The position numbers and the translations under genes are program-made. The notes beneath the pieces are model-generated. The model had not been told where the DNA came from, did not search any database, and saw only the letters and a list, made by a program, of their open reading frames with translations. Source: Chloroflexota bacterium (lineage in GTDB: Bacteria; Chloroflexota; JAJPGV01). From it: a stretch of 64,000 nucleotides of DNA. The DNA is taken from NCBI GenBank assembly GCA_021325635.1, contig JAJPGV010000016.1, forward strand, positions 1 to 64,000, in the 5' to 3' direction. Shown in pieces: positions 33,903 through 61,549 of the stretch (position 1 is the first letter of the stretch; the number at the start of each line of letters is the position of its first letter).

Positions 33903-33906
33903 CGGC

Positions 33907-35713: not shown

Positions 35714-35716
35714 GGT

Positions 35717-36613: not shown

Positions 36614-36677
36614 TCGGGTCGCGCTCCATCATAACAACGGTCGAAACGAGGGTCGCCGAGAGCGAAGGTTGCCTTCG

Positions 36678-40252: not shown

Positions 40253-41203
40253 ATGGAGCAGCAGTGGGCCACGCCGGCCACCACCCGTTCACGGATCATG
40301 CTGGAGGTCGCCTCCGAGCTGGTTGGCCTCGACGCCTGGGAGCGCAAACAGGCGGACGTGTCGCTGCACGGCCGCGGACAAGCCTCGGCGATTCGATTCG
40401 CCGGCAGCGATACGCCCGCGGCGGTGGAGATGCTCACCCGCGGCGAGGCCGACGTTGCGCTCATCAATCCGGCGGCTCCGCTGGCCGTGGCCCTGCGCGG
40501 TAACGGCGCTTCGCGCATCCCAACCCCGGTGCGCGTCATCGCCGTGCTGCCCTCCTATGACCAGATCGCGCTGGCGATTGCCGGCCGCACCGGCTTGACC
40601 TCTCTCGCCGAGGTCAAGGACAGGCGCTATCCGCTGCGCCTGTCGCTTCGAGGCCAGCCGGACCATTCGATCCACTCATTCGTGGAGCACATCCTCGGCA
40701 GTGCCGGCTTCTCGCTCCAAGATCTGCGCGACTGGGGTGGGCAGGTGAGCTACGATCCAGGCTTCAATTTCGGTCGCCGCCTGGCAGCCGTGGCCCGTGG
40801 CGAGGTGGATGCGATCTTCGACGAAGCCGTCGAGGTCTGGGTGGAGGACGCGCTCACGCAGGGCATGCGCATGCTGCCGCTGGAAGAGCCGCAGCTGCAG
40901 CAGCTCGAGCAGCTGGGATACAGGAGAGCCATGCTGGCCGGGTCGACCCACCCGGCGCTCCCCGCCGACGTACCGACACTGGATTTCAGCGGTTGGCCGA
41001 TCTTCGCCCTGGAAAGCACGCCCGACGAGATCGTGTTGGCGTTCTGCGCGGGGCTGGAGGCTCGCAAGGACTGCATCCCCTGGGAAGGCGAAGGTCCGCT
41101 GCCACTGGATCGGATGTGCAGGGACACGCCCGAAGGCCCGCTGGTCGTACCCCTGCACCGGGCGGCGGAGCGCTACTGGCGCGAGCGGGGCTACCTGAGC
41201 TGA
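40253..41203 (+). CDS. TAXI-type periplasmic-binding-protein fold without a signal peptide (paralogue 1)
   Basis: From ATG 40253 (GAGGAGACCTGG before it) the protein is 316 residues. It has TAXI/NMT1-like features: a MLTRGEADVALINPAAPLAVAL strand-helix, GLTSLAEVKDRRYPLRLSLRG (domain 2 start), FNFGRRLAAVARGEVDAIFDE and a C-terminal LHRAAERYWRERGYL. TAXI proteins are normally exported partners of TRAP transporters. Here there is no signal sequence or TM helix, and no TRAP membrane gene. The near-copy at 51558 is also signal-less and is coupled to UbiD 5. A cytosolic ligand-binding or enzymatic role is more likely. A fused ABC permease gene follows after 262 bp. Confidence 0.75.
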   Translation: MEQQWATPATTRSRIMLEVASELVGLDAWERKQADVSLHGRGQASAIRFAGSDTPAAVEMLTRGEADVALINPAAPLAVALRGNGASRIPTPVRVIAVLPSYDQIALAIAGRTGLTSLAEVKDRRYPLRLSLRGQPDHSIHSFVEHILGSAGFSLQDLRDWGGQVSYDPGFNFGRRLAAVARGEVDAIFDEAVEVWVEDALTQGMRMLPLEEPQLQQLEQLGYRRAMLAGSTHPALPADVPTLDFSGWPIFALESTPDEIVLAFCAGLEARKDCIPWEGEGPLPLDRMCRDTPEGPLVVPLHRAAERYWRERGYLS

Positions 41204-41465: not shown

Positions 41466-43244
41466 ATGGCCAGCTCCGGCATCGGTTCCGAGCCCATTCC
41501 CCTGGTCCAGGTGCCCACCTGGCAGCGACTCACGATCCATCGCGACTGGGGGCTGTGGGTGTTCACCGGCGTGATCGGCCTGCTGGTGCTCCTGCCCGTG
41601 CTGATGCTCGTGCTGGGCAGCCTGAGCGAAGCTTCGGTACCCAGCGACTTCGACTTCAGCAACCTCACCTTGGAGAACTTCGCCAAGGCCTACACCAGTC
41701 CGCTGACCTACCGGGTGGCCGGCAACACGGCCATCTACATGTCGTTGAGTCTGTTCTTCGGCATGGCCATCGCACTGCTGTTCGCCTGGCTGGTCGCCCG
41801 TACGAACATGCCCGCGAAGTGGCTCGCGTACGTCGGCCTGCCCATTGCGCTGGCCATGCCGGGCATGCTGGACAGCATGGCCTGGGTGCTCCTGTTCAGC
41901 CCGCGCATCGGTTTCGTGAACCGCTTCCTGATGGGCACGCTAGGTCTCTCTTCGGCTCCGATCGACGTCTACACGATGGCCGGCATGGTGTCACTGGAAT
42001 CGCTGCGGCTGGTCCCAACGTCGTTCCTGATGCTCCTGCCCCTGATGCTGCGCTTCGACCCCTCCCTGGAAGAGGCCGCGGTCATTTCCGGCGGACGAGC
42101 TTGGACCATCGCGCGCCGGGTGACGCTGCCGGTGCTCATGCCAGGCCTGCTGTCGGTGGCCATCTACCACGCCATGACCGTGCTGAGCACCTTCGAGGTG
42201 CCGGGAATCATCGGCCTGCCAGCCCACGTCTACGTGTTCAGCACGCTGATCTACACCTACTCGGCAGGTGCGACTGTGGGTGTCGGCAGCTCCTACGGAC
42301 TGGCCAACGCCCTGGCCATGGCCTACCTGGCGCTGAACGTCGCCGGCATCTGGCTGTACGGGCGCTTCGTCAAGAATGCCGATCGCTTCGCGATCGTACG
42401 CGGGCGTGGCTACCGGCCGCAGCAGATCGACCTGGGGCGCTGGCGCTGGCCGGCGGTGGGTGTCCTGTGCGCATTCCTCTTCGTATTGCTGGTCCTGCCC
42501 ACCCTGGTCCTGATCTGGACGTCACTCACGCCGCGCATCCTTCAGCCCAGCGGCGCGTCGCTGGCACAGGTTACCGGCAACAACTGGCGTCAGGTGTTCG
42601 CCAGCCCGGAGATCATCCGCGTGCTGTTGAACACCGGCGTGGCGACGCTGGCTACCGCCAGCCTGACGTGTGTGGTGTGCCTGATCGTGAGCTGGATCGT
42701 CATCCGCACCAATTTCAAGGGCAAGGCCCTGCTGGCACAGCTCAGCTTCGTGTCACACGGTATTCCCGGCATCATCATGGCGCTCGCGCTGATCTGGCTG
42801 TGGGTGCGAATCACCTTCATTCCGATCTACGGCACGCTGTGGATCATCGTGCTTGGCTTCACTGTCGGCTTCCTGGCCTTTGGAACCAGGACCCTATCAG
42901 CCGGCCTGCTGCAGATCCATTCGGAGCTGTCCGAGGCGGCCTATCTCAGCGGCGCATCGGCTCGAGCCACCATCAGGCGAGTGTTCGCGCCGCTGCTGCT
43001 GCCGGGCCTGGCCGGCCTGTGGATCTGGGCTGCCCTGCAGGCAACACGGCTGGTCTCGCTGCCGCTGATGCTGACCACGGGCCGGCAGAACACCATCCTC
43101 TCGGCTTATCTGTGGGACCAGTGGACCAACGGCAACCCCAACGTCGCCTCAGCGCTGGGGGTGTTCATGGTGACGCTGCTGCTGGTGCTCACGCTGGTAG
43201 CCAGCCGCTTCGGGTTGGGTTCGCGCCAGGCCTCGCTGGCCTGA
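41466..43244 (+). CDS. Fused double-domain ABC importer permease (FbpB-like), permease 1
   Basis: The 592-residue protein contains two binding-protein-dependent permease domains. Each has an EAA loop: EEAAVISGGRAWTIARR near residue 202 and SEAAYLSGASARATIRR near residue 487. About 12 hydrophobic segments are visible. This layout is typical of Fe3+ (FbpB/AfuB) and some thiamine/phosphonate importers. It needs an external lipoprotein and an ATPase; neither is next to it, and no matching ATPase is in the window. It ends at a terminator hairpin. A very similar permease (also 592 residues) lies at 49763. Confidence 0.9.
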   Translation: MASSGIGSEPIPLVQVPTWQRLTIHRDWGLWVFTGVIGLLVLLPVLMLVLGSLSEASVPSDFDFSNLTLENFAKAYTSPLTYRVAGNTAIYMSLSLFFGMAIALLFAWLVARTNMPAKWLAYVGLPIALAMPGMLDSMAWVLLFSPRIGFVNRFLMGTLGLSSAPIDVYTMAGMVSLESLRLVPTSFLMLLPLMLRFDPSLEEAAVISGGRAWTIARRVTLPVLMPGLLSVAIYHAMTVLSTFEVPGIIGLPAHVYVFSTLIYTYSAGATVGVGSSYGLANALAMAYLALNVAGIWLYGRFVKNADRFAIVRGRGYRPQQIDLGRWRWPAVGVLCAFLFVLLVLPTLVLIWTSLTPRILQPSGASLAQVTGNNWRQVFASPEIIRVLLNTGVATLATASLTCVVCLIVSWIVIRTNFKGKALLAQLSFVSHGIPGIIMALALIWLWVRITFIPIYGTLWIIVLGFTVGFLAFGTRTLSAGLLQIHSELSEAAYLSGASARATIRRVFAPLLLPGLAGLWIWAALQATRLVSLPLMLTTGRQNTILSAYLWDQWTNGNPNVASALGVFMVTLLLVLTLVASRFGLGSRQASLA

Positions 43245-43305: not shown

Positions 43306-44427
43306 TCAGGCGACGGCGAGCGCCGGCATGCGGTACTCGATGCCGAGCCGGGCGATCTCCTCTTGATAGAGCCGGCGGATCTCGGGATCCTCATCCTCCA
43401 GCTCGATGAGCGTCCCGCCAACGCGCGTGCTGATCGAGCAGCTGACCCGCGACTGCACGTCGTGGAACTGCACCCCATAGTTGTGGCTGCCGTAGCGTAG
43501 AGCCAGCTGGCGGGCCGGCTCGTGGCCAATGTTGAAGTGCTGGTGGAACCAGCCTGTTGGGGGACTGAAGACGCTGCCGACCTGCCAATCGACGCGCACT
43601 ACCTGGTCGCCGTAGCCGTTCTCGTACGGCCGCAGGCCGAGCTCACTGGGCCACATAATCGAGTAGCCCTTGGAGCGCACGACCATCAGGACCGCGCCCC
43701 CGCCGTGATAGTGGGCCTTGTGGTAGCGGCCGACAGGCCATTCGGTCATATGGCCGACCAGCACGTTGCCGGACATCTCGTAATGTGTCGAGAGGTTGCC
43801 GGGGCCCTTGGACTCTCCCTGGTCCAGCGCAGCACCCGGCACGTCGGGAATGAAGTTCGTCTCCCACACCATGCGCGGGTTGCGGCTATCGGCGTCGAAG
43901 CGTCGCTCGCCAACCTTGTAGTAGTCGGACTGGCCGTTGAAACGGTCGGCGAACGCGTAGTCGCAGTTGAACACGAAGTCGGGGCTATGGAACAGGTCCA
44001 TGACGATCGGCTCGGTAGTGACGGCGAGGAAGCGCGCCGGCTCCGTGCCGGAGCCGTTGAACAGCCGGTGCCAGGAGTTGGCCGGCGGAGCGAAGAGGCT
44101 GCCCGCCTTCCATTCGAAGGTCGTGCGGCCCTGGGCTTGGTCTTGGTTGCCAGGCCAAACCTCGGCCGCACCGCGTCCGGAGACGACGTAAATCAGCTCC
44201 TCAAACATGTGCTTCTCAGGCTTCAGCGTGCCACCGGGAGGTATCTCACCCACGTACATGCCGGTCAGCCCTTCGAGGCCCATCAGCTGCAGATAAGCTC
44301 CGCGGCCCCCGAGGCGCTCCCAGTCTCCCAGCTCGAGCGCCATGACGTCCGTGACGCCGTGGCCGGTAACGATGGGAATCCCTTCCTGGACCATCCACTC
44401 GCCGTACGTGGTCTGTTGCTTCGCCAC
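43306..44427 (-). CDS. Double-cupin protein, ring-cleavage-dioxygenase-like (bicupin 3)
   Basis: The 373-residue protein is the closest relative of bicupin 2, sharing HMFEELIYVVSGRGAAEVW, ANSWHRLFNGSGTEPARFLA, MDLFHSPDFVFN and, in the second barrel, KAHYHGGGAVLMVV and TGWFHQHFN. Metal-binding His residues are present in both barrels. Start GTG 44427 has AGGAG six bases upstream. A TACAAT -10 box lies about 65 nt upstream. It follows UbiD 3 on the same strand, but that promoter lets it be read alone. The substrate is unknown; a ring-cleaving dioxygenase is the best guess. Confidence 0.72.
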   Translation of the reverse strand: MAKQQTTYGEWMVQEGIPIVTGHGVTDVMALELGDWERLGGRGAYLQLMGLEGLTGMYVGEIPPGGTLKPEKHMFEELIYVVSGRGAAEVWPGNQDQAQGRTTFEWKAGSLFAPPANSWHRLFNGSGTEPARFLAVTTEPIVMDLFHSPDFVFNCDYAFADRFNGQSDYYKVGERRFDADSRNPRMVWETNFIPDVPGAALDQGESKGPGNLSTHYEMSGNVLVGHMTEWPVGRYHKAHYHGGGAVLMVVRSKGYSIMWPSELGLRPYENGYGDQVVRVDWQVGSVFSPPTGWFHQHFNIGHEPARQLALRYGSHNYGVQFHDVQSRVSCSISTRVGGTLIELEDEDPEIRRLYQEEIARLGIEYRMPALAVA

Positions 44428-44501: not shown

Positions 44502-45905
44502 CTATTCCTGAGGACCCAACCACTCGGCCAGGCGGATGTCATTCATGACCTCGGGGGGGATGAACGAGCGCTGCTCGAAGACCGCCGGCGGGGCCGGCTT
44601 GGTGCAGTCGATGCCCGACCTGGTCCCGAGCATGTGGCCGGTCGCGTTGGGATCCAGGCTGGACACGTGCAGCTCGGGAATGACGATGAGGTCTTTGGCC
44701 CAATCGGACCGCGTGCCGACGGCCCAGTGCACTTCCTGCTCGTCGAAGATGTCGATGTCCTCGTCGAAGACGAATACGTGCTTGATGCCCTCGGGTGCGC
44801 CCAACGCCGTGGAGATGATCGCCCGCGGCTGCCAGTCATGCGTCTTGCGCAGCTGGACGTACATGTAGTAGGGACACGTCGGCGGCCGGTAAATGTTCTT
44901 GACCTGCGGCACGATCCGCTTGAGCAGATCGAACAGGAAGCCCTCGCGACGCAGCGCGCCGATCATGTCGTCGGCATAGCCGGTGATGATGGAAGTCCAG
45001 TAGGCGTCTTCGCGATGGGTGACGCAGGTCACCTCCATGTACGGATTCAGGCGCTGGGCGCCGAAGTAGCGGGTGTACTCGCCAAACGGCCCCTCCGGCT
45101 TTACCTTTCCCCGCGGAACGATGCCCTCGATGACGAACTCCGCGTCGGCCGGAACGAGGAAATCGTCGCCCAGCGTCTCCGACGGAACCAGCCGCAGCGG
45201 CTCGCCCAGCAGACCACCCGCTGCGGCCCAGTGGCTTTCGGGATATCCCAGCTTGGACTCCGCACCCATGCAGACCGCCGGATGGTGGCCCACCCAGAAG
45301 GCAATGCGCGCGTCTTCGCCCTTCGCCTCCTGCTTGCGGATATTCCAGGCGTTGTGGCTCGACGGGTTCGGGAAGACCCGGATCTCGCCCTTCTCGGAGA
45401 TCCAGCCCCGCTGCAGCGCCGAGTTGTCGATGCCGGTCTCGGGATCGTAGGTCGTCAGAAACCCGGCCGACACGTACGGGCCCGGATCCCAGCCCGCATG
45501 CACTATGGCCGAAATCTCGCCCAGGTCCACGGCGGCGCCCTTCTTCACCATCTGCTTGACGCTGGCCTCAGCGCGGCTCACCACCACCGGCTGAACGCGC
45601 GAGTTACGGCGCTGATAGGCATCCTGGCTCACCATCTCGAAGGTGGAGTCCAGCGCGAAAGCCAACCTCCGGCGGGAAGCGAAGAGGTTGAGCACCAACG
45701 GGAACTGCGAATGCCGGCGATCGACAGTGCACAGGTTGTGGAAGATGAACACCGGCGCCTCCGGCAGCTCCTTCTGCGCTTTGAGGGCCACCGCCGAGGC
45801 CTGCCACTTGGCGCTGGCCTCGCGTTGGACGTGCACGGTCAGATTGGGATTCGCCTGCTCGTATTGCCGCAAGAAGCTGTGAAGGTCCTTTGTGGGGCTG
45901 GACAT
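44502..45905 (-). CDS. UbiD-family decarboxylase, divergent clade (paralogue 3)
   Basis: From ATG 45905 (GGAGG 9 nt upstream) the protein is 467 residues. The active-site frame is kept: NSALQR (N-x4-R), a His 18 residues on in NPSSHNAWNI, ADAEFVIEG, and EGPFGEYTRYF with both catalytic Glu. Elsewhere it differs strongly from the other five UbiDs: no NVGTYR, no HERDGG motif, and a different N-terminus (SPTKDLHSFLRQYEQAN). It may act on a different acid. It lies between an O-methyltransferase (80 nt upstream) and bicupin 3. Confidence 0.85.
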   Translation of the reverse strand: MSSPTKDLHSFLRQYEQANPNLTVHVQREASAKWQASAVALKAQKELPEAPVFIFHNLCTVDRRHSQFPLVLNLFASRRRLAFALDSTFEMVSQDAYQRRNSRVQPVVVSRAEASVKQMVKKGAAVDLGEISAIVHAGWDPGPYVSAGFLTTYDPETGIDNSALQRGWISEKGEIRVFPNPSSHNAWNIRKQEAKGEDARIAFWVGHHPAVCMGAESKLGYPESHWAAAGGLLGEPLRLVPSETLGDDFLVPADAEFVIEGIVPRGKVKPEGPFGEYTRYFGAQRLNPYMEVTCVTHREDAYWTSIITGYADDMIGALRREGFLFDLLKRIVPQVKNIYRPPTCPYYMYVQLRKTHDWQPRAIISTALGAPEGIKHVFVFDEDIDIFDEQEVHWAVGTRSDWAKDLIVIPELHVSSLDPNATGHMLGTRSGIDCTKPAPPAVFEQRSFIPPEVMNDIRLAEWLGPQE

Positions 45906-45985
45906 CCTTTTCACCCTCCGAAGTGTTTTGGCTGCACCCGGTCCCCGGCCCTCCGCCGAGCGCCAGGTTCGACCATCGCTTGCAC

Positions 45986-46848: not shown

Positions 46849-48267
46849 CTAGAACAGCGACGCCCATCTCTCGAGCACCTTAGCCCGCAGATCCTGGCTC
46901 GCCGTGTTCGTCTTGGGGAAGTCGACCGACCATTCGTATGGCTTACAGGCGTCGATGATAGCCCGAGAGCTGGTCAGGTCGCCTGCCTTCTTGCGGTCCG
47001 GCGGAATGCGCGGATCGAGCGCGCTGGACGGGCAGTGGTTGAGGATCGTGAGCGTCGTCGCCGGATCACAGCGCGTGCCGATAGCCCACAGCACGTCATA
47101 GGGATCGCGCGGATTGATGTCCTCGTCGACCACCACCACGAACCTGCCCATGTACTCGCCGCTGGCGGCCAGGCCAACGCGCATGGCGTGGCCCGGATAG
47201 CGCTGCTTGATCTGCACCACTGTGATGCCCGGTACCGCCAGCCGGCAGACATCCAGCACGTCCTCGAGGCCGGCCCGCTGCAGCCGGTCCTGCTGGTTGC
47301 GCTCCTGAGTTGGCAGCGCGAAATGCGACGGGGTGCGAGCGTGGCGCACCGGCGGCATTCCCAGGATGATCGGATCGTTGCGGTGATACAGCGCCTCCAC
47401 GTGAATGACCGGCTCGGGCCGGGTGCCGGACGCGTAGTAGCCGGTCCATTCTCCGAACGGACCCTCGTCGCGCGCTTCCACAGCGGGCGAGGCAATCGTT
47501 CCGGCGACGACGATCTCGGCGGTCGCGGGTATGGGCAGCCCGGTTACTTCCTCGCGGATGACCTCGACCGGCTCACCGCGCACGTAGCCGACCAGGTCGT
47601 ACTTGCCCATGCCCAGCTTCTGGCCGAGGAATGGGGATGCGCCGGCGAACAGGATCGGCTCTTCCCCGAAGGCCACCGCCACCGGGCAGACCTCGCCCTT
47701 GGCCCAGTATTTCCGTTCGATGATGGCACCGGTGTGATTCGGCGTAATGTACAGCCCCAAGCTTGTCTCGTCCTGGATCATCACCCGGTAGGTGCCGAAA
47801 TTGACCTGACCGGTGTCCGGGTCGCGCATGATCACCACGCAGCCGGTACCGATGTATCTGCCACCGTCGAGCTCGTGCCACTTGGGCGTGGGGAACTTCC
47901 ATAGATTGATCTCCCGGCCACGGAAGACGTTTTCCAACACCGGGCCACGCGAAACCTCGACCGGCGGCGTGGGACGGTAGCCGTGCATTCGCTCCTGGTA
48001 CGCATCCAGGGCGGATTTCACGTCGAGATCGAGCGGCAGATCGAGCGCCAGCAGCGTGCGGCGCAGTGAATCCATAGCATTGGTGAGCACCCGGTAGCCG
48101 TGTGGATACCCTTCAATATCATCGAACACCAGCGCCGGTCCCTGGCGCTCGTACATCAGCTCAGAGATGGTGCCGATCTCCAGGTTCCAGTCGGCGCCGC
48201 CGACGGTTCGCAGCTCCCCGATGCGATCGACCGCCGAAAGGAACTCCCGTAAGTCACGGTAGGGCAA
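46849..48267 (-). CDS. UbiD-family decarboxylase (paralogue 4)
   Basis: The 472-residue protein keeps VNFGTYR, His in TPNHTGAI, ATAEIVVAG and EGPFGEWTGYYAS. Start is TTG 48267 with GAGG upstream; no Met lies near the expected N-terminus MPYRDLREFL (Met from TTG). It is close to UbiD 2 in its N-terminal half (GADWNLEIG motif). It heads a set of UbiD - zinc ribbon - O-methyltransferase - UbiD 3 on the minus strand. A TACAAT box at 48379-48384 lies 112 nt upstream. Confidence 0.87.
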   Translation of the reverse strand: MPYRDLREFLSAVDRIGELRTVGGADWNLEIGTISELMYERQGPALVFDDIEGYPHGYRVLTNAMDSLRRTLLALDLPLDLDVKSALDAYQERMHGYRPTPPVEVSRGPVLENVFRGREINLWKFPTPKWHELDGGRYIGTGCVVIMRDPDTGQVNFGTYRVMIQDETSLGLYITPNHTGAIIERKYWAKGEVCPVAVAFGEEPILFAGASPFLGQKLGMGKYDLVGYVRGEPVEVIREEVTGLPIPATAEIVVAGTIASPAVEARDEGPFGEWTGYYASGTRPEPVIHVEALYHRNDPIILGMPPVRHARTPSHFALPTQERNQQDRLQRAGLEDVLDVCRLAVPGITVVQIKQRYPGHAMRVGLAASGEYMGRFVVVVDEDINPRDPYDVLWAIGTRCDPATTLTILNHCPSSALDPRIPPDRKKAGDLTSSRAIIDACKPYEWSVDFPKTNTASQDLRAKVLERWASLF

Positions 48268-49762: not shown

Positions 49763-51541
49763 ATGCAAGCCCGAGCGCTGACAGGCGCGGTCGCGGACAG
49801 CGGCCCCGCGGCAGGCATCCTGCAGTGGCGGCCCAAGATCCACCCGCTGTGGGCGCTGATCGTGCCCACGGTCGCGATCATCCTGGGCCTGCTGTACTCG
49901 GTCTTCTGGTTGAGCTTTCTGCAAGGCCTGCCCGGCACGGCCCAGGCACACTTCACGATCGACAACTACATCAGTATCTACGCCGACGCCTTCGCTCTGA
50001 CGGCGCTCAAGAACACGCTCGGCTTCTCGCTCAGCGCCGTGGCCGTGGCACTGCTGTTCGGCACCGTCACTGCCTGGCTGACCGAGCGGACGGACCTGCC
50101 CGGTAAGGCCGCCATCTACACGCTGATGACCCTGTCACTGCTGCTGCCGGGCTTTTTCACCGCCATGGGCTGGCTGTTTCTCCTCCACCCGCGGATAGGC
50201 ATCGTCAGCCAGTGGCTGATGCGACTGACCGGCTTGACCGAGGCTCCGCTGAGCATCACCACGGTGGCCGGTATGGGCTGGGTACAGGGCCTCAACCTGG
50301 CGTCACTGGCCTTCGTCCTCACTGCCGCCAGCTTCCGCTCCATGGATCCGACGCTCGAAGAAGCCGCGCGAGCCAACGGAGCTCGGCCATTCCACGTGGT
50401 CCGCCGCATCGTGCTGCCGCTGATGACGCCCGGCATAGTCGCGGCGGCGATGTACATCTTCACCATTGCCCTGGCATCCTTCGACGTGCCGGCCATCATC
50501 GGCTTGAGCAACCGCATCTACACCTTCAGCACCTACGTCTATTCCAAGAAGGTATCGGCCGACGGCCTGCCGCAGTACGGCGGCATCGCCGCCATGAGCA
50601 GCATGATGGTGCTCGTGGCCATCCTGATCAGCTACCTGTACGGTCGAGTCATCAAGCGCGCCGACCGCTACCAGGTGGTGACCGGCAAAGGCTACCGGCC
50701 CGACAGGACCAGGCTGGGCCGGCGGGCAATCCTGGCCTGGCTGTTCGTCGGCGCTTACGTGGCCATGGCCAAGGTCTTTCCGCTGCTGCTGCTCATCTGG
50801 GCGGCCGGGCTGCGCTTCTTCCAACCGCCGTCCGCGCAGGCTTTCAGCCAGCTCTCATGGCAGAACTTCCGCGGAATGCCGTTAGACCTGGTGCTCAAAG
50901 GCGCTACCAACACTGCCCAGCTGATGATCGCGGTGCCGACACTGGCGATCCTGGCCAGCTTCGGCTTCTCGTGGATGATCGTGCGATCGCGATCCCGCCT
51001 GCGGGTGCTGCTGGACTTCTTCGCCTTCCTGCCCCATGCCGTGCCCGGGCTCATCTTCGGCGTTGGGGCAATGTTCGTTGCGCTGTTCCTGCTCAAGGGC
51101 CTGCCGCTGTACGGCTCGGTAACGCTGATTGCCATTGTCTACGTGGTGCAGCATCTCAGCTTCGGCACGCGACTGTTGAACACCTCACTGCTGCAGATCC
51201 ATCGCGACCTGGAGGAGGCGGCCGTCATCTCAGGAGCCAGCGGCCTGCGAACGGCGCGCAAGATCCTGGCGCCTTTGGTTCGGCCGGCTATCCTGAACGG
51301 CTGGGTCTGGCTGGCGCTCATCTCCTATCGCGAGCTGACCGTGGCCACGCTGCTGTTCACGCCCCGCAACATCACGCTGCCAACAGTGGTATGGAACGTG
51401 TGGTCCAGTGGCAACTACGGTGTGGCGGCGGCGATCAGCCTGGTGCTGCTGTCCTGCCTGATGCCGCTGATCCTCATCTACTACATCGTCGGCCGGCGTA
51501 CCGCCGCTTCGAGCGCGGCGCGAGGCCCGGCACGGATCTGA
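49763..51541 (+). CDS. Fused double-domain ABC importer permease (FbpB-like), permease 2
   Basis: The 592-residue protein has two permease halves. EAA loops are EEAARANGARPFHVVRR near residue 195 and EEAAVISGASGLRTARK near residue 482. Topology and length match permease 1 (41466). It is 50 nt after SBP 4, which supplies the ligand. It converges with the TAXI-like gene at 51558 (16 nt gap). The missing ATPase must be encoded elsewhere, perhaps shared by both permeases. Confidence 0.9.
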   Translation: MQARALTGAVADSGPAAGILQWRPKIHPLWALIVPTVAIILGLLYSVFWLSFLQGLPGTAQAHFTIDNYISIYADAFALTALKNTLGFSLSAVAVALLFGTVTAWLTERTDLPGKAAIYTLMTLSLLLPGFFTAMGWLFLLHPRIGIVSQWLMRLTGLTEAPLSITTVAGMGWVQGLNLASLAFVLTAASFRSMDPTLEEAARANGARPFHVVRRIVLPLMTPGIVAAAMYIFTIALASFDVPAIIGLSNRIYTFSTYVYSKKVSADGLPQYGGIAAMSSMMVLVAILISYLYGRVIKRADRYQVVTGKGYRPDRTRLGRRAILAWLFVGAYVAMAKVFPLLLLIWAAGLRFFQPPSAQAFSQLSWQNFRGMPLDLVLKGATNTAQLMIAVPTLAILASFGFSWMIVRSRSRLRVLLDFFAFLPHAVPGLIFGVGAMFVALFLLKGLPLYGSVTLIAIVYVVQHLSFGTRLLNTSLLQIHRDLEEAAVISGASGLRTARKILAPLVRPAILNGWVWLALISYRELTVATLLFTPRNITLPTVVWNVWSSGNYGVAAAISLVLLSCLMPLILIYYIVGRRTAASSAARGPARI

Positions 51542-51557: not shown

Positions 51558-52511
51558 TTACAGGTAGCCGCGCTCGCGCGAGAAGCGCTCGGCCGCCGGA
51601 TGCAGAGGGATGTTGAGCGGGCCCTCGCGCGAGTCCCGGCACATCCGCTCCAGAGGTAGCGGACCCTCGCCCTGCCACGGCACCCGATCCTTGCGAGCTT
51701 CGAGCGCGGAGCAAAAGGCGGCGATCAGGTCGTCGGGCGCGCTGTCGAGCGTGAAGATCGTCCAGCCGCTGAAATCGAGCGTAGAGACGTCCCCGGGGAG
51801 CTTCGGATACTCAGCCTGGCGAAGCACCGACCGTCCGAAACCGCGCCGCTCCAGCTCGGCCAGGGTCGCCCCTTCGATCGGCAGCACTCGCATGCCAACG
51901 TCCAGCGCGCCGCCAACCCAGTTGTCCACGGCCTCGTCGAACATGGCATCGACCTCGCCGCGCTGCACGGCGGCCAGCCGGCGGGCGAAGTTGAAGCCCG
52001 GGTCGTAGCTGACGCTGCCACCCCAGGAAGTGAGGTCCTCCAGCGTGAAGCCCAGCACCGCGCAGATCTGGTCCACGTAGAAGCGCACGGAGTGGTCGGG
52101 CTGCCCCCGCAGTGACAGCCGTAACGGAAATTTCCGATCCTTGATCTGCTCCAGCGATGTCAAACCGGTGCTCTCCGAGACAGCCAGGGCCAGCTGGTCG
52201 TAGGACGGGATGACTCCAATCGCCCGCAGCGGAATTGGCTCGCGAAACGGATCGCTGCCGCGCAGGGCGACTGCCAGAGGCCCGGCCGGATTGATGATGG
52301 CGATGTGCGCCTGGCCCTTGGCAACCATGTCGATCGCGGCCGGCGTGTCACTGCCAATCAGGCTCCAGGTGGAACTGGCGTCACCCTGCACCCGCAGGTT
52401 GACGAAGGCCTGCTTGTGCGTCCAGGAGTCGAGTCCTGCCAGCTCCGACGCAACCTCCAGCACAACGCGCGAGCGCGTGGTGGAGGGCGTCGCCCACTTT
52501 CTTCGTTCCAT
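51558..52511 (-). CDS. TAXI-type periplasmic-binding-protein fold without a signal peptide (paralogue 2), coupled to UbiD 5
   Basis: From ATG 52511 the protein is 317 residues, a close relative of the TAXI-like protein at 40253 (shared WATPSTTRSRV, GSDTPAA, INPAGPLAVALRG, LRLSLRGQPDHS, VSYDPGFNF, DFSGW). Like that one it has no signal peptide. The start shares the A of the UbiD 5 stop (TGATG) and has AGGAGG five bases upstream, so production is tied to UbiD 5. This argues for a cytosolic partner, such as a substrate carrier or a second enzyme. The longer frame upstream to 52568 lies inside UbiD 5 and is not used. Confidence 0.77.
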   Translation of the reverse strand: MERRKWATPSTTRSRVVLEVASELAGLDSWTHKQAFVNLRVQGDASSTWSLIGSDTPAAIDMVAKGQAHIAIINPAGPLAVALRGSDPFREPIPLRAIGVIPSYDQLALAVSESTGLTSLEQIKDRKFPLRLSLRGQPDHSVRFYVDQICAVLGFTLEDLTSWGGSVSYDPGFNFARRLAAVQRGEVDAMFDEAVDNWVGGALDVGMRVLPIEGATLAELERRGFGRSVLRQAEYPKLPGDVSTLDFSGWTIFTLDSAPDDLIAAFCSALEARKDRVPWQGEGPLPLERMCRDSREGPLNIPLHPAAERFSRERGYL

Positions 52512-53983
52512 CAAGCCTCCTGAAGCCCAACTAGGCTGCCGGAATGTTCGCGAAACACTGCTCGCCACTTGTCATACACCCGTTGCCGCAGCTCGTCGCT
52601 GCCCCTGTTCACTGCCGGGAACTGGTCTTTCCACTCCCATGGGCGGCAGGCGATGATCAGCGCCCGGCTGGCAGTGAGCCCGCGAGTCTTCTTGCGGGCC
52701 GGCGGAATCACCGGATCCAGCGGCGAAGACGGACATTCGCTCTGCATCTCGAACGAGGTCGACGGATCGCTGCGCGTGGCGATGGCCCACAGGATCTCTT
52801 CGGGATCGGAAGGGTCGATGTCGTCGTCCACGACGATCATCAGGCGGCACATGCTGTGCATGAGGCCGGAGGCCACGCGGCCCACCTGGCGCGCGTGGCC
52901 CGCGTACTGCTGTTGGATGGCGACGGTTGTCACCAGGCCCCCGCCCGTGTTCAGGGCGAAAACGCCCTTGATGCCCGGCAGCCCGGCTTTCAGCAAGCCG
53001 TCCCACACGGTGGGAACGCTGCCGGCCGGCGGGCAGGCCCAGGTGTCGATGGGCGGCTTCAGCGGCGGCTCGCCGTGCAGGATGGGGTTCGTGCGGAAGT
53101 AGCAGGCTTTCACCCGTATCACCGCCCGCATGCCTTCGTCGCCGGCGTAATACCCGGTGTATTCTCCGAACGGTCCCTCCATGCGCTGCTCCTCGTCAGG
53201 CGGGGGCAGCTCACCCTCAATCACCAGCTCTGCCGATGCCGGAAGCGGCAGGCCGGTCTCCGGACCGCTCAGCACGTCGAGGGGCTCGCCCTTGAGGAAC
53301 CCGGCGTATTCGAGCTCGGTCGTGCCCCAGGGCACGCCATTGGTCGAGGCCGAGAACAGACACGGCTCGGGCGAGACGACGAGGGCCACCGGGCAGCTCT
53401 TGCCCTGGGCCCACCATTTGCGCATCTGCAGGTTGCCGTGATGATACGGCGCCACCTGGATCCCTAGGGTCCGCCGATCGTGAAGCTGGCAGCGGTAGGT
53501 CCCGACGTTGATCCAATCCTCGTCCGGATCGCGGGTGATCACCGCGCAGCCGGTGCCGAAATACGGACCGCCGTCCCGCTCATGCCACCTGGGTGTGGGG
53601 AAGTGGCAGAGGTCAACAGACGTGCCCTGCTGCACGTTCTCCATGAGCGGGGAGCCCTGCACCGCGCGAGGAGGAACAGGCCGGAACGAGCCCATCCGCT
53701 CGCGCCACACCCGGAACATGCCGAAGGGAGACTCATCTTCGGGCAAACCCAGCGCGATGGCCGTCCGCAGGGGCGTGGAGTAGGGCTTGGCGGCAATGCG
53801 GTAGCCCCGAGGAAAGCCATTGATGCTGTCGAACAGCAGCATCGGTCCCCGCCGCTCGCACATGAGCTCGGTGAGCGTGCCGATCTCCAGATCGCAGTCC
53901 GCACCCTCGATGAGCTTGATCTGCCCGCGGCGCTCCAGCCTGTCGAGAAAGTCGCGGAAATCGCGGCAGGGAGTCTCCGTCAT
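52511..53983 (-). CDS. UbiD-family decarboxylase (paralogue 5)
   Basis: The 490-residue protein has all expected residues: INVGTYR, His in APYHHGNL, ASAELVIEG and EGPFGEYTGYYAG. The N-terminus LIEGADCDLEIGTLTEL MCERRGPM is shared with UbiD 6 (61546), making these the closest pair of the six. AGGAG lies 7 nt before ATG 53983. It is 22 nt after a signal-less NMT1-like gene, and its stop overlaps the start of a signal-less TAXI-like gene: a three-gene block of UbiD with two cytosolic binding-protein folds. Confidence 0.88.
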   Translation of the reverse strand: MTETPCRDFRDFLDRLERRGQIKLIEGADCDLEIGTLTELMCERRGPMLLFDSINGFPRGYRIAAKPYSTPLRTAIALGLPEDESPFGMFRVWRERMGSFRPVPPRAVQGSPLMENVQQGTSVDLCHFPTPRWHERDGGPYFGTGCAVITRDPDEDWINVGTYRCQLHDRRTLGIQVAPYHHGNLQMRKWWAQGKSCPVALVVSPEPCLFSASTNGVPWGTTELEYAGFLKGEPLDVLSGPETGLPLPASAELVIEGELPPPDEEQRMEGPFGEYTGYYAGDEGMRAVIRVKACYFRTNPILHGEPPLKPPIDTWACPPAGSVPTVWDGLLKAGLPGIKGVFALNTGGGLVTTVAIQQQYAGHARQVGRVASGLMHSMCRLMIVVDDDIDPSDPEEILWAIATRSDPSTSFEMQSECPSSPLDPVIPPARKKTRGLTASRALIIACRPWEWKDQFPAVNRGSDELRQRVYDKWRAVFREHSGSLVGLQEA

Positions 53984-54005
53984 CTCTCGCTCCTAGCGTC
54001 CGGCG

Positions 54006-54983
54006 TCAGGCGACAACTTTGCCCGGACCGGGCACCTGGCCAGCGTACAGCTCTTCAATGAAGCCGCTCTCCTCGACCTCGCGCAGCAGGTGGATGTCCC
54101 ACAGACTGAATGGATTGAGCTTCTCGGCGATCTCCGGCTCCTCCATTACCGCGAGCTCGAAGGCGTTATGCACGGCGTCGGCCCGCGGGTAGAGCCTGGG
54201 CTCGAGGATCGCCTGATTGGTTCGGTGCAGGTGCTCCAGCACGTGGCGGTCCTTGATCTCCAGATCCGTAGCGACGTCGGTCTCCATTACCTGCCACATC
54301 TTGTCGGGCTGCGTCTTGATGAAATGAATGCCCATGAGCACGGCTTTGAGCACGCCGCGACACAGGTCGGGCCGGCTCTCGACCGTCGGCCACAGGGTCG
54401 TCATGGTGCTGGCGTTGACCATGGGCAGCGGGTCCAAGTGCAGCACCGACAGGCCGGCGGCCGCGGCCTCAGCGTCGTGCGGAGGCGACACGAACGTGGC
54501 GTCGCCCTCGCCGTCCAGCACTGCCTTGTAGAACGAGCGCTGCTTGGTATGGGTGAAGATCACCTGGTGCGGATCGAGACCGCCCCGGCGCATGTACAGC
54601 AGATGATTGCCGGCCGGGTGGCTGCCGTGATGGCTCTCGGCGTCGGCCTTCTCGGTCTCGATGAGCCTGCGCCCTTCCAGCTGGCGCAGATCCTTGATTG
54701 GCTCGCGGGACACCAGCGCGTCTTCGCTCCAATTGACCGTCTGGCCGAGGTACACGAAGGGCTGGCCGTGCAGCCGATGCAAATACGGGCTGATGTGGCT
54801 GCCGAAGATGAAGTCGCACTCGCCCTTCACCAGCATCGGGTCCGACGCCGCCGCGCCGGAAACGTAGGTCAAGCTTTCGAGCTCGATGCCTGCACGAGCC
54901 CAGCCGTCGCAGGCTTTGATAGCCGCCAGGAGCGGGTACTGGATGCGGCGAGAGCGATACACGAGACGCAGGGGTATTGGCAC
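54006..54983 (-). CDS. Signal-less NMT1/SsuA-type binding-protein fold; possible 4,5-dihydroxyphthalate-decarboxylase-like enzyme
   Basis: From GTG 54983, with GGAGG directly upstream, the protein is 325 residues and begins IPLRLVYRSRRIQYPL without a signal peptide. It has a type II periplasmic-binding fold: VKGECDFIFGSHIS, EPIKDLRQLEGRRLI, and LDGEGDATFVSPPHDAEA. From memory, 4,5-dihydroxyphthalate decarboxylase (Pht5-like) has this same fold, no signal and about 330 residues, so an enzyme is a serious alternative to a transport role. It starts 92 nt after SBP 5 and ends 22 nt before UbiD 5. Confidence 0.68.
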   Translation of the reverse strand: MPIPLRLVYRSRRIQYPLLAAIKACDGWARAGIELESLTYVSGAAASDPMLVKGECDFIFGSHISPYLHRLHGQPFVYLGQTVNWSEDALVSREPIKDLRQLEGRRLIETEKADAESHHGSHPAGNHLLYMRRGGLDPHQVIFTHTKQRSFYKAVLDGEGDATFVSPPHDAEAAAAGLSVLHLDPLPMVNASTMTTLWPTVESRPDLCRGVLKAVLMGIHFIKTQPDKMWQVMETDVATDLEIKDRHVLEHLHRTNQAILEPRLYPRADAVHNAFELAVMEEPEIAEKLNPFSLWDIHLLREVEESGFIEELYAGQVPGPGKVVA

Positions 54984-56914: not shown

Positions 56915-57359
56915 CAGCGGGCTACCGCCGGACGCGCTCGGCCCGGTACCTGAGGGCGAACGTCTCCATTTGGGCAGGCATTGTAGCCCAGCCACGCCCC
57001 GGACCGCATGACGCCGGCCCGGCGCTTCGTTCGTCTTCAGCAATGCGACGGCGGCATGAGCCGCGACGCGTCCACGTTGCCTGATCGTACAGCTCTTGGT
57101 ATGTATCCGCGGCGGCTCCTGGTATGCAACCGACTCAGCACAGCCGCCCGGAAGGCACCACGCGTTAAACGCGTTTGACAGAACCAAGCTACCGTTGGAA
57201 GCGGACAGAACCATGCGACAGCCACCCGCGGGCACTCGCGCATGACGCATACTCAGCTCGGGCTGGAGCGAGAGCCGCGGCGGGCAGGTTGGTACACTGG
57301 TGTGTCGGCTCGTCGACAAACGAGCCTCCATACGAATCTGGGAGGATGCAGCGGCAGCA
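56915..57359. other. Divergent intergenic region with repeats and an inverted repeat beside TTGACA
   Basis: The 445-bp gap between the CoxG-like and ParB-like genes has no supported gene. It contains an inverted repeat ACGCGTT-A-AACGCGT at 57160-57174, followed directly by a perfect -35 word TTGACA (57175-57180). No matching -10 lies 16-18 bp later. Two direct repeats are also present: CTCTTGGTATGTA/CTCCTGGTATGCA (57093, 57116) and GACAGAACCA (57177, 57204). A TACACT at 57293-57298 may be the -10 of the ParB-like gene. Confidence 0.5.
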
Positions 57360-58535
57360 ATGAGCTCACGCAAGGTCGAACGAGCGCTCGACCCTATCGT
57401 CACCACGGTCGACCTCTACCAGGAGGTCCCGGCCAGTATCGAAGAGCTCGAAGAAGATCCGGACAACATTCGCCTGGAGAACAACCCCGAGACAGTCGAC
57501 GGGCTGAGCCGGGCACTCGAGCAATTCGGCCGCTACGACGTAGCTCCCCGCGTGTGGCGCACCGAAGACGGCAAGCTGCGAGCCCTGGCCGGCAGCGGAC
57601 GAGTCCGGGCGGCCAAGCGCGCCCGCCAGCGCAATCTCAACCTGGAGCAGATACCGGTCATCGAGATGCCGGCGCCGAAGAGCCGCGCCGATAAGATCTA
57701 CCTGCAGTTCGCCGAGAATGCGCTGCGCGACGCGCTCGGCCCCATCGACTACGGCCGCGGCTTCAAGATGCTGTCCTCCGAGGGTCTTACCTACGACCAG
57801 ATCCTCGATCAGCTGCGAGCGCGCGGGATCCTCCCCAGAGACCGGACCAAGGCGTGGGTGAGCCAGATGATCCAGCTCACCGAGCTCCAGCCCGCCGTTC
57901 AGCGCATGGTCAATCGGGGCGAGGTGAGCATATGGCAAGGGCTGCAGCTTCGGCACTTGCCACCGGACGAGCAGTTGGCCACGGCCGAGAGGATACAGCG
58001 CGACAGTCTTTCCCGCTCCAGCCTGCGATCGCTGGTGACGAACGGCGCCGACTCCGGCTCCCCGACGTCCACCGAGGCACTGCTGCAGGAGACCCGCGAT
58101 CTCATCCAGCGCAAGGCAGGCGAGCTGCGAGCACCAGCTGCGCCACAGGCCCGTCAGGCGCCGGACCCCGAGCGAAGACACGGCCAGGTGACCTCGCATT
58201 GGACCCTGCCCACGTCGAGTCCCCGCTCCACCCCACCTCAGTCGAAGCTGGCCGCGCTGCAACGGCTCGGCTGGTATCAGGACAGCGCGACGGCCGAAGA
58301 GCGGGAGCTGGCCCTCGAGGCGGTAAACGGCGGGCACAGCGCAGCGGCAGCCGCCGACCTCGTGCGACGAGCCGTGCAGGAGGCCCCCGCGGCCTCGGCG
58401 CCCATGCGCGATCTGCTCGTTGCTCTGCGGCAGGTCCACGACCGCGCGACCGAGCTGGAGAAGGAGCGAACGAGTGCGCCGGCCGAGTTCGCTCGCCTGC
58501 GACTGAAAGCGCTCCTGCAGATCCTGGGAGGCTGA
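57360..58535 (+). CDS. ParB/RepB-like DNA-binding protein
   Basis: From ATG 57360 the protein is 391 residues. The N-terminal nuclease-like/CTP-binding domain has LEEDPDNIR, the GSGRVRAAKRAR motif (GERR-type) and AENALRDALGPIDYGRGF. A helix-turn-helix follows (YDQILDQLRAR ... KAWVSQMIQLTEL). The C-terminal half is basic and disordered-looking with two helical blocks. Chromosomal ParB works with ParA at parS; neither a ParA gene nor a canonical parS (TGTTTCAcGTGAAACA) was seen here. It may be a transcription regulator of ParB origin or a mobile-element remnant. GGGAGG lies 14 nt upstream of the ATG, further than usual. Confidence 0.72.
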   Translation: MSSRKVERALDPIVTTVDLYQEVPASIEELEEDPDNIRLENNPETVDGLSRALEQFGRYDVAPRVWRTEDGKLRALAGSGRVRAAKRARQRNLNLEQIPVIEMPAPKSRADKIYLQFAENALRDALGPIDYGRGFKMLSSEGLTYDQILDQLRARGILPRDRTKAWVSQMIQLTELQPAVQRMVNRGEVSIWQGLQLRHLPPDEQLATAERIQRDSLSRSSLRSLVTNGADSGSPTSTEALLQETRDLIQRKAGELRAPAAPQARQAPDPERRHGQVTSHWTLPTSSPRSTPPQSKLAALQRLGWYQDSATAEERELALEAVNGGHSAAAAADLVRRAVQEAPAASAPMRDLLVALRQVHDRATELEKERTSAPAEFARLRLKALLQILGG

Positions 58536-58678: not shown

Positions 58679-61549
58679 ATGGAAACCGCGTTTACAAACA
58701 ATCCTCGGCTGGTTGCCCGGCCGCGGCTGATCGATCAGCTCGCTCGAGCCGCACAAACGAGGGCTTGCCTGGTCCTGGCGCCCGCGGGCTACGGCAAGAG
58801 CACACTCCTGCGCCAGTTCGCGGGCACCGCCCAAGCCCGCGTTGTCTGGGCCGAGGCTCGGCCCGCTGTGCGCCAGCCCGACGCGTTCTGCCTGGCGCTG
58901 TCCAGTCAGCTGGCAGCCCTTGGTTCCCCTGTCCCGGCCGCGCCGGCCGAGCCGCGAGAGGCCGGCGCCTGGGTCCGGCTGTTGGTCGAGCAGGCCACTG
59001 CGATTCCCACTCCGGCAATCCTCGTAGTCGACGACTTCCACTTCCTCGATCGCGATCCCCTTGGGCTGGACGTCCTGTCACAGCTGCTGAACGCCGCTGA
59101 GGCCGAGCCTCTGCATTTCCTGCTAGCCGGTCGCTGGATGCCCCAGGTGCGGACCGCGCGACTGCGCGTGAAGGGCGAGATCGAGGTCCTGGGCAAGCGC
59201 GATCTGGCATTCACGGGCGACGAGGTGCAGGCCTATGTCGATCTGGCGCGCCGCGCCGGTGCCTCGCAGGAGGAGGCGAGGCAGAAGTGCGCCGAGCTGG
59301 GTGGCTGGATAGCGGGAATCGTGCTGACCGAGCCACCCCACGCTGCCGGCCACTCCAGCGGCAGGGCCAATCTGGCAGAGTACGTCGAGGACGAGATCCT
59401 GGCGGCCCTGCCCCTCGACCTGGCCACTTTTGCGCTCCAAGCATCCACGCTGCACGCGCTGTCAGTTCAGCTGTGCGATCACGCCCTCGAGCGCGACGAT
59501 TCCGCAGCGATGATCGAACAGCTGGAACGCCACGGCCTGCTGAACGACGACAGCCCCGGCGAAACCAGGCGCCTGGAGCCGTACCTGACAGAGTGCCTGC
59601 GCGGTCTGCTCGATCCGGCCAAGGCGCGGGACGTCCGGCTGCGAGCCGGCGCCTTCTGTGCCAGCCGGCAGGATTGGCTGACCGCGTCCGAGTACTTCCC
59701 CAACGCCGAGGCCTGGGAGGACATGCGAGCCGTCCTCGATACGGCGAGTGACCGCGCCTCACGCTTGACCGCGACGCTGGAGCGGGCCGAGGGCGAGCCG
59801 AAGCTGCCCAAATCTCTGGTGGTGGCGCAGACCAAGGCGTTGATTCGCCGCGGTCAGTTCGACCAGGCCCTGGGGCTGTTCTCCGAGCTGGGCGCCATCC
59901 GCAGCTGGCCCAAGGCGGACGTCGAGCTGCTGCGCTCGTGGCTAGCGCTGCAGGCGGGCTACCCGCAGGAAGCGCGCATGTTTGCCGAGGAAGCCCTGCG
60001 GGAAAGCAGGCTCTCAACGCCGCTGGTCGGGCAGCTCTACAACTGCCTGGGGGCTGCCTGCCAGTCCCTGGCTCAGCACGACGAAGCCGAGCAGTGGTAT
60101 CAGCGAGCCCTGGCCGAGTTCGAGCGCACCGGCGATAACGCCGGCATCGCCCACGAGAAGACCCACCTTGGCTTCCTGTATTTCCAGACGGGCGAGTGCG
60201 CTCAGGCCGAGAGCCTGCTCGACGACGCCGTGCGTCTGCTGCGCCAGGCGGGCCGGGATGATTACCTGGCTCGTGCGCTGACCAACCTGGCCGAGCTGCG
60301 CCTGCAGATGAACCGTCTCGAGGACGCGTTTGAGCTGATCGACGAAGCCTGCCAGGTCATACGGCAGTGCGGCGACGAATCGTACTTGGCTCAGGCGCTG
60401 CACGCGCGAGGGCTGGCGCTGCGCGTGTCAGGCGACATGGCCGGAGCGCAGGAAGCCTTCCGCCAAAGCGGCGAGGCGGCCGCGCGCACCAGCCAGCTGC
60501 CGGTGAGAAAGATGTCGTTGGCTGCCGCCGCGCTCCACGTGGCCGAGCAGGGCAGCTGGCAGGAGGCCATGCGCATGGTCTCGGACATCGGGCCCGAGCG
60601 CCAGGCGCCGGAAGCCGCGATCCTCGGCCTGTTCGTCAAGATCCGGGTGGCCTGGCTACGCCGCGACGACGCCACGGCGCTGGAGCTGTGTGAACGGACG
60701 GCCGGGATCGTCGAGGAATGCGGGCAGGTACGCTATCGCGGTCTCCTCAGCGTGCTGCAGACCGCCGTCCTTATCCGCGCTCGGGCCGAGCAGCAGTCGG
60801 TGCGGGCGGCCGTGGAGGCTCTGTTAGCCAGCCCTTACTTGCCGTTCTCCCTGCGCATGCTCCCCGACGCCAGCGCTGTGGTGATCCGTTGGGCCAGCGC
60901 CCAGTCCGACCCCGCCATCAACAGCCACCCGGCCTGGAACGTCGCCAAGCGCAGCTTTCGCGCCGGCCGCAAGGCCAGGCAGGGATACCCCGAGAAGATC
61001 GAGGTGCGGGTGCTCCGGGACGCTCTGTACGTGGAGATCGATGGCGTGCCGCACCATGGCGGCTGGAAACGGGCGCTGGACCTGTTCCTGTACCTGGTCG
61101 AGAACCCCGAGGGCGGCAAGGCCCTCGAGATCGCCGGCCGTTTGTGGGCCGAAGATGGCCGCAGCCGGCTGGCCATCCAGCAGCGCTTCCACAGCATGGT
61201 GGCGGCGCTTCGAGAAATCTTGGGCGCCGACGCCATCGTGCGGGACGATTCGGTGTGGCCTTCGGAGTACCGGCTCAACCCGAAGATCGCGCTGACCTAC
61301 GACCTCGCCCAGCTTCGCACGCTCGCTCGAAACGTCCTCGAGGGGACCAGCGGACCGGCGCCGGCGGCCGCCGGGGATACGGCTCATGAGATGTATGCCG
61401 CGCCGTATTGGCCTGCGCGGGCGCTGCGAAGTCCGTGGTTCAAGTCGGTGGAACAGGAGAGCCGCCTGCTGCTCCAGCTGGTCCTGACCCAGGAGCCTGC
61501 GCCGGCACGCGGCGGCCGGTCGGCGAGCCACCTCGCCCCAGCCGGTTAG
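58679..61549 (+). CDS. MalT-like STAND ATPase regulator with TPR repeats and a C-terminal winged helix
   Basis: The 956-residue protein begins with a P-loop (LAPAGYGKST, about 33-42) and Walker B (AILVVDDFHFL, about 118-128). Many TPR-like helical repeats follow (about 400-700), and the C-terminus is an OmpR/BTAD-like winged-helix domain near residues 770-880 (LDLFLYLVENPEGGKALEIAG, then SRLAIQQRFHSMVAALREILG). MalT-type regulators bind ATP and an inducer, then activate transcription. It is the only clear regulator inside or beside the catabolic island and may control it. Its stop codon interlocks with that of the converging UbiD 6 gene. Confidence 0.83.
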   Translation: METAFTNNPRLVARPRLIDQLARAAQTRACLVLAPAGYGKSTLLRQFAGTAQARVVWAEARPAVRQPDAFCLALSSQLAALGSPVPAAPAEPREAGAWVRLLVEQATAIPTPAILVVDDFHFLDRDPLGLDVLSQLLNAAEAEPLHFLLAGRWMPQVRTARLRVKGEIEVLGKRDLAFTGDEVQAYVDLARRAGASQEEARQKCAELGGWIAGIVLTEPPHAAGHSSGRANLAEYVEDEILAALPLDLATFALQASTLHALSVQLCDHALERDDSAAMIEQLERHGLLNDDSPGETRRLEPYLTECLRGLLDPAKARDVRLRAGAFCASRQDWLTASEYFPNAEAWEDMRAVLDTASDRASRLTATLERAEGEPKLPKSLVVAQTKALIRRGQFDQALGLFSELGAIRSWPKADVELLRSWLALQAGYPQEARMFAEEALRESRLSTPLVGQLYNCLGAACQSLAQHDEAEQWYQRALAEFERTGDNAGIAHEKTHLGFLYFQTGECAQAESLLDDAVRLLRQAGRDDYLARALTNLAELRLQMNRLEDAFELIDEACQVIRQCGDESYLAQALHARGLALRVSGDMAGAQEAFRQSGEAAARTSQLPVRKMSLAAAALHVAEQGSWQEAMRMVSDIGPERQAPEAAILGLFVKIRVAWLRRDDATALELCERTAGIVEECGQVRYRGLLSVLQTAVLIRARAEQQSVRAAVEALLASPYLPFSLRMLPDASAVVIRWASAQSDPAINSHPAWNVAKRSFRAGRKARQGYPEKIEVRVLRDALYVEIDGVPHHGGWKRALDLFLYLVENPEGGKALEIAGRLWAEDGRSRLAIQQRFHSMVAALREILGADAIVRDDSVWPSEYRLNPKIALTYDLAQLRTLARNVLEGTSGPAPAAAGDTAHEMYAAPYWPARALRSPWFKSVEQESRLLLQLVLTQEPAPARGGRSASHLAPAG

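Follow-up and report, generated by a model that had tools for sequence, protein, structure and literature searches.

Signal-less binding-protein folds beside UbiD decarboxylases: candidate enzymes of an aromatic-acid catabolic island in Chloroflexota

Introduction

The window analysed here is a stretch of 64,000 nucleotides (nt) from a Chloroflexota genome (GCA_021325635.1, contig JAJPGV010000016.1), in which the gene for a UbiD-family decarboxylase, UbiD5, lies between the genes for two proteins of periplasmic-binding-protein (PBP) fold, one NMT1-like and one TAXI-like. In what follows, G000 is the source genome, G037, G055 and G184 are its three closest TAXI-rich relatives, G055 being another Chloroflexota genome; C denotes a contig and L a locus. 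The reference phthalate cluster has the order pht3 (Rieske), ophA1, pht4 (Gfo/Idh) and pht5 (PBP-type decarboxylase). The TAXI-like and NMT1-like proteins resemble Pht5 in being signal-less, of PBP type and about 320-330 amino acids (aa) long, and relatives of both cluster with phthalate-dioxygenase-type Rieske and Gfo/Idh genes (TAXI at L099, NMT1 on C14). Unlike the pht cluster, the unit in the window has UbiD and short-chain dehydrogenase/reductase (SDR) genes, and the window has a Rieske gene, with no Gfo/Idh gene found in it.

MqnA/MqnD and cyclohexadienyl dehydratase are PBP-fold enzymes acting on cyclic or aromatic acids. They are biosynthetic, not catabolic, and belong to Pfam families other than those of the window proteins; in the futalosine pathway a UbiD-like decarboxylase receives the product of MqnA/MqnD. 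Cyclohexadienyl dehydratase arose from a solute-binding protein (PMC7683729). Among the TAXI solute-binding proteins (SBPs) of tripartite ATP-independent periplasmic (TRAP) transporters, VcGluP and BP0403 rely on Tyr and Gln as key residues for the ligand (PMC12344293). The TAXI-like proteins have neither signal peptide nor TRAP partner, and in them neither the GSGT loop nor the Gln in the first cleft loop is kept. The NMT1-like protein shares the PF09084 domain with the NMT1/THI5-like family (SsuA, ThiY, yeast Thi5); it differs from SsuA in having no export signal and an invariant set of its own (H63, N84, N126, W295, R301). A hand alignment with Thi5 tentatively places Gly at the position of its pyridoxal-phosphate lysine. 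UbiD5 resembles the enzymes of UbiD-based aromatic catabolism (phthaloyl-CoA decarboxylase, vanillate decarboxylase, phenylphosphate carboxylase) in its UbiD domains, its EGPFGE motif and the presence of UbiX in the genome, whereas no CoA ligase or known accessory subunit was recognised beside it. A search of the literature for UbiD, Rieske and paralogues in Chloroflexi yielded one paper only, on the SAR202 pangenome, and it does not mention UbiD.

The TAXI-like and NMT1-like proteins are read here, with confidence just short of even, as cytosolic PBP folds recruited to an aromatic-acid island, each a cofactor-free enzyme of the Pht5 type and a pathway-mate of UbiD. They have no export signal and no TRAP partner in the genome, the content of the island is conserved, and tight coupling to catabolic enzymes recurs.

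Results

Architecture of the gene unit

The unit, the gene upstream of it and a second TAXI-like gene are as follows.

51558-52511, minus strand: TAXI-like (NMT1_3) protein, 317 aa, without signal peptide by hydropathy; PF16868 33.7 bits, TIGR02122 23.9 bits; Shine-Dalgarno sequence AGGAGG
52511-53983, minus strand: UbiD-family decarboxylase UbiD5, 490 aa; PF01977 193 bits, with UbiD_N and UbiD_C; EGPFGE motif at residue 269
54006-54983, minus strand: NMT1/THI5-like protein, 325 aa, GTG start, without signal peptide; PF09084 32.4 bits
55076-56317, minus strand: ATP-binding cassette (ABC)-type solute-binding lipoprotein (SBP_bac); matches to PF01547, PF13416 and PF13343; lipobox LLAACG
40253-41203, plus strand: second TAXI-like copy, 316 aa, 63% identical to the TAXI-like protein at 51558, without signal peptide

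The UbiD5 stop codon TGA shares its final base with the ATG start of the TAXI-like gene (TGATG), and 22 nt separate the NMT1-like gene from UbiD5. All three genes have good Shine-Dalgarno sequences, AGGAGG before the TAXI-like ATG and GGAGG before the NMT1-like GTG. Both TAXI-like copies exceeded the NMT1_3 cut-off of 27 (33.7 and, for the second copy, 28.3 bits), the NMT1-like protein exceeded the PF09084 cut-off of 20.5, and UbiD5 was above the Pfam cut-offs in its N, middle and C domains (42.1, 193.1 and 80.1 bits); the cut-offs of the NCBI equivalog models were not reached by UbiD5. A reading made from the sequence alone had placed UbiD5 between the two PBP-fold genes with these junctions and had noted the second signal-less TAXI-like copy; coordinates, junctions and families were all confirmed. 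The lipoprotein gene lies 92 nt upstream of the NMT1-like gene, and the unit probably starts with it, one gene earlier than supposed.

Six UbiD genes occur among the roughly 50 genes of the window, and 35 UbiD-domain genes in the genome. Because the neighbourhood is so rich in UbiD, adjacency to UbiD by itself is weak evidence; it is the overlap and the short spacing that make the UbiD5 unit notable. Fused ABC permeases of about 590 aa were seen at 41466-43244 and 49763-51541 (both plus strand), with no ABC ATPase gene recognised nearby, and all but one of the five TAXI-like genes in the genome adjoin or lie near such a permease.

Export signals and TRAP partners

The peak 15-residue N-terminal hydropathy of the PBP-fold proteins was 0.95, 0.95 and 1.15, against 1.7-2.7 in the lipoprotein SBPs of the same window. 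Upstream of the starts, in-frame stops come after 21 codons (TAXI) and 24 codons (NMT1), and the possible extensions are polar; there is therefore no room for a signal peptide on either protein, as the sequence-only reading had held. No signal-like N-terminal hydrophobic segment was found in more than 40 homologues, compared with neighbouring lipoproteins. That reading had named TRAP membrane genes beside relatives as an observation that would count against it; the TRAP membrane subunit DctM (PF06808) was absent from all four genomes checked (G000, G037, G055 and G184). The cut-off of the TAXI TRAP SBP model TIGR02122 (84.35) was not reached by the TAXI-like copies (23.9 and 25.8 bits). On the proteobacterial plasmids Phaeobacter pP11_c and Aminobacter pANY103b, TAXI-annotated proteins without an obvious signal lie inside aromatic operons, with no TRAP membrane gene listed within about 6-8 kb. 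Taken together, the missing signals, the absence of DctM and the plasmid parallels point to TAXI-like and NMT1-like proteins that are predicted to be cytosolic.

That they are ordinary binding proteins of transporters, with a signal that was missed or another route out of the cell, is very improbable and largely refuted. Membership in PF16868 and PF09084 is what would be expected of such proteins, and fused ABC permeases and lipoproteins are their neighbours; against this stand the more than 40 homologues without a signal-like segment, the four genomes without a TRAP membrane gene and a TIGR02122 score of 24 against a cut-off of 84. The TRAP reading in particular was rejected, signal-less TAXI-like genes being present in four genomes and DctM in none.

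Two further plasmid loci were observed. A Hymenobacter psoromatis plasmid (Bacteroidota; L164:11911-12948) encodes a signal-less TAXI-like protein, 39% identical and annotated as hypothetical; nothing in the 25 kb displayed is annotated as TRAP or UbiD. Caballeronia grimmiae plasmid p3 (L170) shows a comparable pattern in Betaproteobacteria: a pair of PBP-type proteins, encoded side by side and annotated as binding proteins of ABC type, is flanked by an aldolase, a VOC protein and an amidohydrolase, and no permease is listed among the genes displayed.

A conserved catabolic island

The unit belongs to a larger island, the other members of which are listed below.

46849-48267, minus strand: UbiD4; 65% reciprocal best match, whose G055 orthologue is coupled to the TAXI orthologue at 10 nt (L101)
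44502-45914, minus strand: UbiD3; 61% reciprocal best match, whose G055 orthologue comes after the NMT1 orthologue (L142)
33907-35109, minus strand: Rieske oxygenase of the phthalate 4,5-dioxygenase (pht3) type; 29% identity to pht3 (E=2e-42), 70% to the G055 orthologue
29716-40057, minus strand: rest of the island, with FAH, molybdenum hydroxylase CoxL/CoxS/CoxM, SDR and cupin genes; reciprocal best matches of 44-74% to G055:C111, and NCBIfam
43306-44427, minus strand: cupin protein, probably of the ring-cleavage dioxygenase type; Cupin_2, 50% reciprocal best match

Thirteen reciprocal-best orthologues of window genes, 44-74% identical, were found within 22 kb of G055:C111 (22.2-43.8 kb), with the gene order shuffled. 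Identities were 66% for FAH, 67% for CoxL, 57% for SDR, 70% for Rieske, 74% for CoxS, 59% for CoxM, 44 and 50% for the cupins, 61, 65 and 70% for UbiD3, UbiD4 and UbiD5, 56% for TAXI and 49% for NMT1. Thirteen orthologues in one reordered stretch mean that the gene set of the island was kept in two lineages and the UbiD partner was not. What is conserved is thus the aromatic-catabolic content of the island and not the three-gene order, which was looked for across genomes as the sequence-only reading had proposed: it was seen in this window only, and other genomes gave pairs with differing UbiD partners. An association with aromatic catabolism was supported. The NMT1 orthologue in G055:C111 (L142:15150-16148) contains an in-frame TGA or a frameshift, from gene decay or an assembly error.

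Distribution and partners in other genomes

The source genome (4.64 Mb in 63 contigs, the window lying on a 210-kb contig) has, besides its 35 UbiD-domain genes, 5 TAXI-like genes, 18 NMT1-like matches and one UbiX. UbiD matches numbered 35 each in G037 and G184, some of them fragments, and 24 each in G055 and G072; TAXI-like matches, all without signal peptides, numbered 5 in G000, 14 in G037, 5 in G055 and 16 in G184. Close relatives of the NMT1-like protein (E up to 1e-25) occurred in 4 of the 400 genomes sampled from the phylum; TAXI relatives were present in nine, and these include all four. This co-occurrence amounts to about two independent cases, since three of the four belong to one family. 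A contig scan yielded one partial relative, and a plasmid search with the NMT1-like protein gave no match.

Neighbours were surveyed at 37 TAXI-like loci; the counts are lower bounds, many contigs being short. Within 5 kb, SBP_bac_5 lipoproteins were present at 22 loci, Rieske genes at 14, cupins at 10 and UbiD at 6. Tight same-strand neighbours included luciferase-like monooxygenases (LLM; 3), SBP5 (3), UbiD (2), Rieske (2), cupin (2), and Gfo/Idh, a thiamine-pyrophosphate (TPP) enzyme, an amidohydrolase and CoxL (1 each). SBP_bac_5 lipoproteins of about 580 aa abound in the catabolic clusters of G037 and G184 (L096-L132), where each cluster has one or two.

Several loci recall the pht cluster. 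On C61 of the source genome, a TAXI-like gene is divergent from a UbiD gene (88 nt, automatic calling), which is followed by a Pht5 homologue (27% identity, E=1e-28) and a pht3-like Rieske gene. The closest NMT1 paralogue (65%), on C14 of the source genome, has as neighbours a Gfo/Idh gene resembling pht4 (37%) and genes for a Rieske protein, a LigB-type dioxygenase and a cupin. On G037:C40 (L099), a Rieske gene (34% to pht3) is followed after 4 nt by the TAXI-like gene and after a further 78 nt by a Gfo/Idh gene (32% to pht4). This pht pathway context (G037:C40 and C14) is the best clue to function.

UbiD was immediately adjacent to a TAXI-like gene at 3 of the 37 loci (window, C61 and L101), p ~0.02 under a uniform genome model, which ignores clustering. 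It was adjacent to none of the roughly 30 TAXI copies in G037 and G184, despite about 35 UbiD matches per genome, and the UbiD-linked TAXI genes were not recovered as a single clade. The coupling of PBP folds to UbiD proposed from the sequence alone thus recurs, at C61 and at 10 nt in G055:C111; the dedicated three-gene system does not, the partner being UbiD5 in the window and the orthologues of UbiD4 or UbiD3 in G055.

These counts bear on two other explanations. The grouping could be a by-product of a UbiD-dense, often rearranged island, with little meaning for joint function. The density of UbiD in the window, the changed order in G055 and an adjacency p-value that local clustering weakens further would all fit; genes that overlap or stand 10-22 nt apart and have good ribosome-binding sites do not, and retention of the same 13-gene set in two lineages suggests one pathway, so that we consider a by-product improbable. 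Alternatively, the PBP-fold proteins could be dedicated UbiD subunits, either partners in loading or maturation of prenylated FMN (prFMN) akin to LpdD, which is reported to be a UbiD activation chaperone (PMC10865409), or members of a UbiD-specific delivery complex. The TGATG coupling and 22-nt spacing in the window, the 10-nt coupling to another UbiD in G055 and the divergent pair on C61 speak for such subunits. Only two of the 35 UbiD genes of the source genome were found with TAXI or NMT1 adjacent (the window unit and C61), however, and the many TAXI copies without adjacent UbiD in G037 and G184, together with the failure to recover the UbiD-linked ones as one clade, make this role quite improbable as well.

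Conserved residues, profiles and structure models

The TAXI-like protein is homologous to solved TAXI structures over about 270 residues (profile, E ~1e-14); its N-terminal Tyr region does not align with them. P75, G85, D105, W163, E193 and G224 were identical in 43 of 43 aligned sequences of the TAXI-like clade, and R13, N74, R135, H140 and D192 were nearly invariant in a closer set. By comparison with the solved TAXI proteins, the W163-G-G segment (an insert) and E193 are specific to the clade, which also has QPDHS in place of the GSGT loop and Asn-Pro in place of the Gln before the first cleft loop. D105 was dropped as a special residue, since ordinary TAXI proteins commonly carry an acid (Glu) there. 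Paralogues with different partners share these clade-specific residues. Among 17 sequences of the NMT1 family, H63, Y67, N84, N126, P187, T193, W295 and R301 were invariant.

Such residues matter for a further explanation, that the proteins are non-catalytic cytosolic ligand binders, which buffer an imported aromatic acid, pass it to the first enzyme of the pathway or sense it for regulation. This we regard as possible and on balance rather unlikely. The fold itself is a binding fold, the partner enzymes vary widely, the neighbour met most constantly being an ABC solute-binding lipoprotein (22 of 37 loci), and 14-16 paralogues per genome are as expected with one binder per substrate. Yet a number of polar residues never vary among paralogues whose ligands should differ, and no attached output domain or regulator was detected. 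We know of no example of a cytosolic PBP that delivers substrate, which also counts against a carrier.

In profile-profile comparison, the NMT1-like family matched Pht5 with a probability of 96-98% over 252-288 columns, and the TAXI-like family with 89% over partial length. The AlphaFold2 model of the NMT1-like protein matched SsuA and Thi5 in Foldseek (TM ~0.2), at low confidence and indicating the general fold at most. A PDB sequence search with the NMT1-like protein returned nothing useful.

Discussion

The TAXI-like and NMT1-like proteins probably work beside decarboxylases as enzymes or carriers and not as parts of transporters. If they are enzymes of the Pht5 type, gene context suggests catalysis as decarboxylases or lyases. 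Substrate would be imported via the ABC-type lipoprotein encoded nearby. The phthalate-dioxygenase-like Rieske enzyme or the molybdenum hydroxylase would yield a ring-hydroxylated or partly processed aromatic polycarboxylate; the TAXI-like and NMT1-like proteins would take this compound and remove one carboxyl or catalyse a related lyase reaction, UbiD, a prFMN enzyme, would take off another carboxyl, and cupin and FAH proteins would open and cleave the ring. No fixed complex with UbiD would be formed, and the partner enzyme would vary by locus. A second decarboxylation step beside UbiD is the best available mechanism, though an unproven one. The likening to 4,5-dihydroxyphthalate decarboxylase made in the sequence-only reading gains the support of gene context (pht3/pht4-like neighbours) and not that of direct sequence similarity. 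True Pht5 homologues are present in the genomes that bear TAXI and NMT1 (C61, L098, L099), so that the TAXI-like and NMT1-like proteins may be additional enzymes and not replacements.

Several observations weigh against catalysis of this kind. The partner enzymes are diverse (UbiD, LLM, TPP enzyme, amidohydrolase, Rieske, cupin), which would also fit a general binding protein, and the commonest neighbour of the TAXI-like genes is a transport lipoprotein (SBP_bac_5). No similarity to Pht5 was detected by blastp with either window protein, and the profile matches to Pht5 may reflect the shared fold only. The AlphaFold2 models were untrustworthy (mean pLDDT 37 and 49, from shallow alignments), and the TAXI model was discarded.

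A broader proposal, which we hold as possible and more doubtful than not, is that in certain Chloroflexota the cytosolic TAXI-fold proteins, a large family expanded by paralogy to as many as 16 members per genome, are enzymes, with NMT1-fold ones besides, and perform cofactor-free decarboxylation or lyase reactions on diverse aromatic polycarboxylates in tandem with expanded sets of UbiD enzymes (24-35 per genome). Such a family would put the TAXI fold to a new catalytic purpose. Automatic annotation labels these genes as transporter components. Should the proteins be enzymes or carriers of the cytosol, such labels are mistaken for many TAXI and NMT1 genes of aromatic-degradation clusters, and little-studied Chloroflexota have a greater catabolic capacity than they are credited with. 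They would then also be one more instance of a binding-protein fold that has left transport, and their numerous paralogues would allow that transition to be studied.

Genes adjoining the island

A gene for a ParB-like protein (57300-58535, plus strand) and one for a large MalT/LuxR-like ATPase regulator (58679-61549, plus strand), both recognised by eye only, adjoin the island and may mark a mobile or plasmid-derived stretch beside it.

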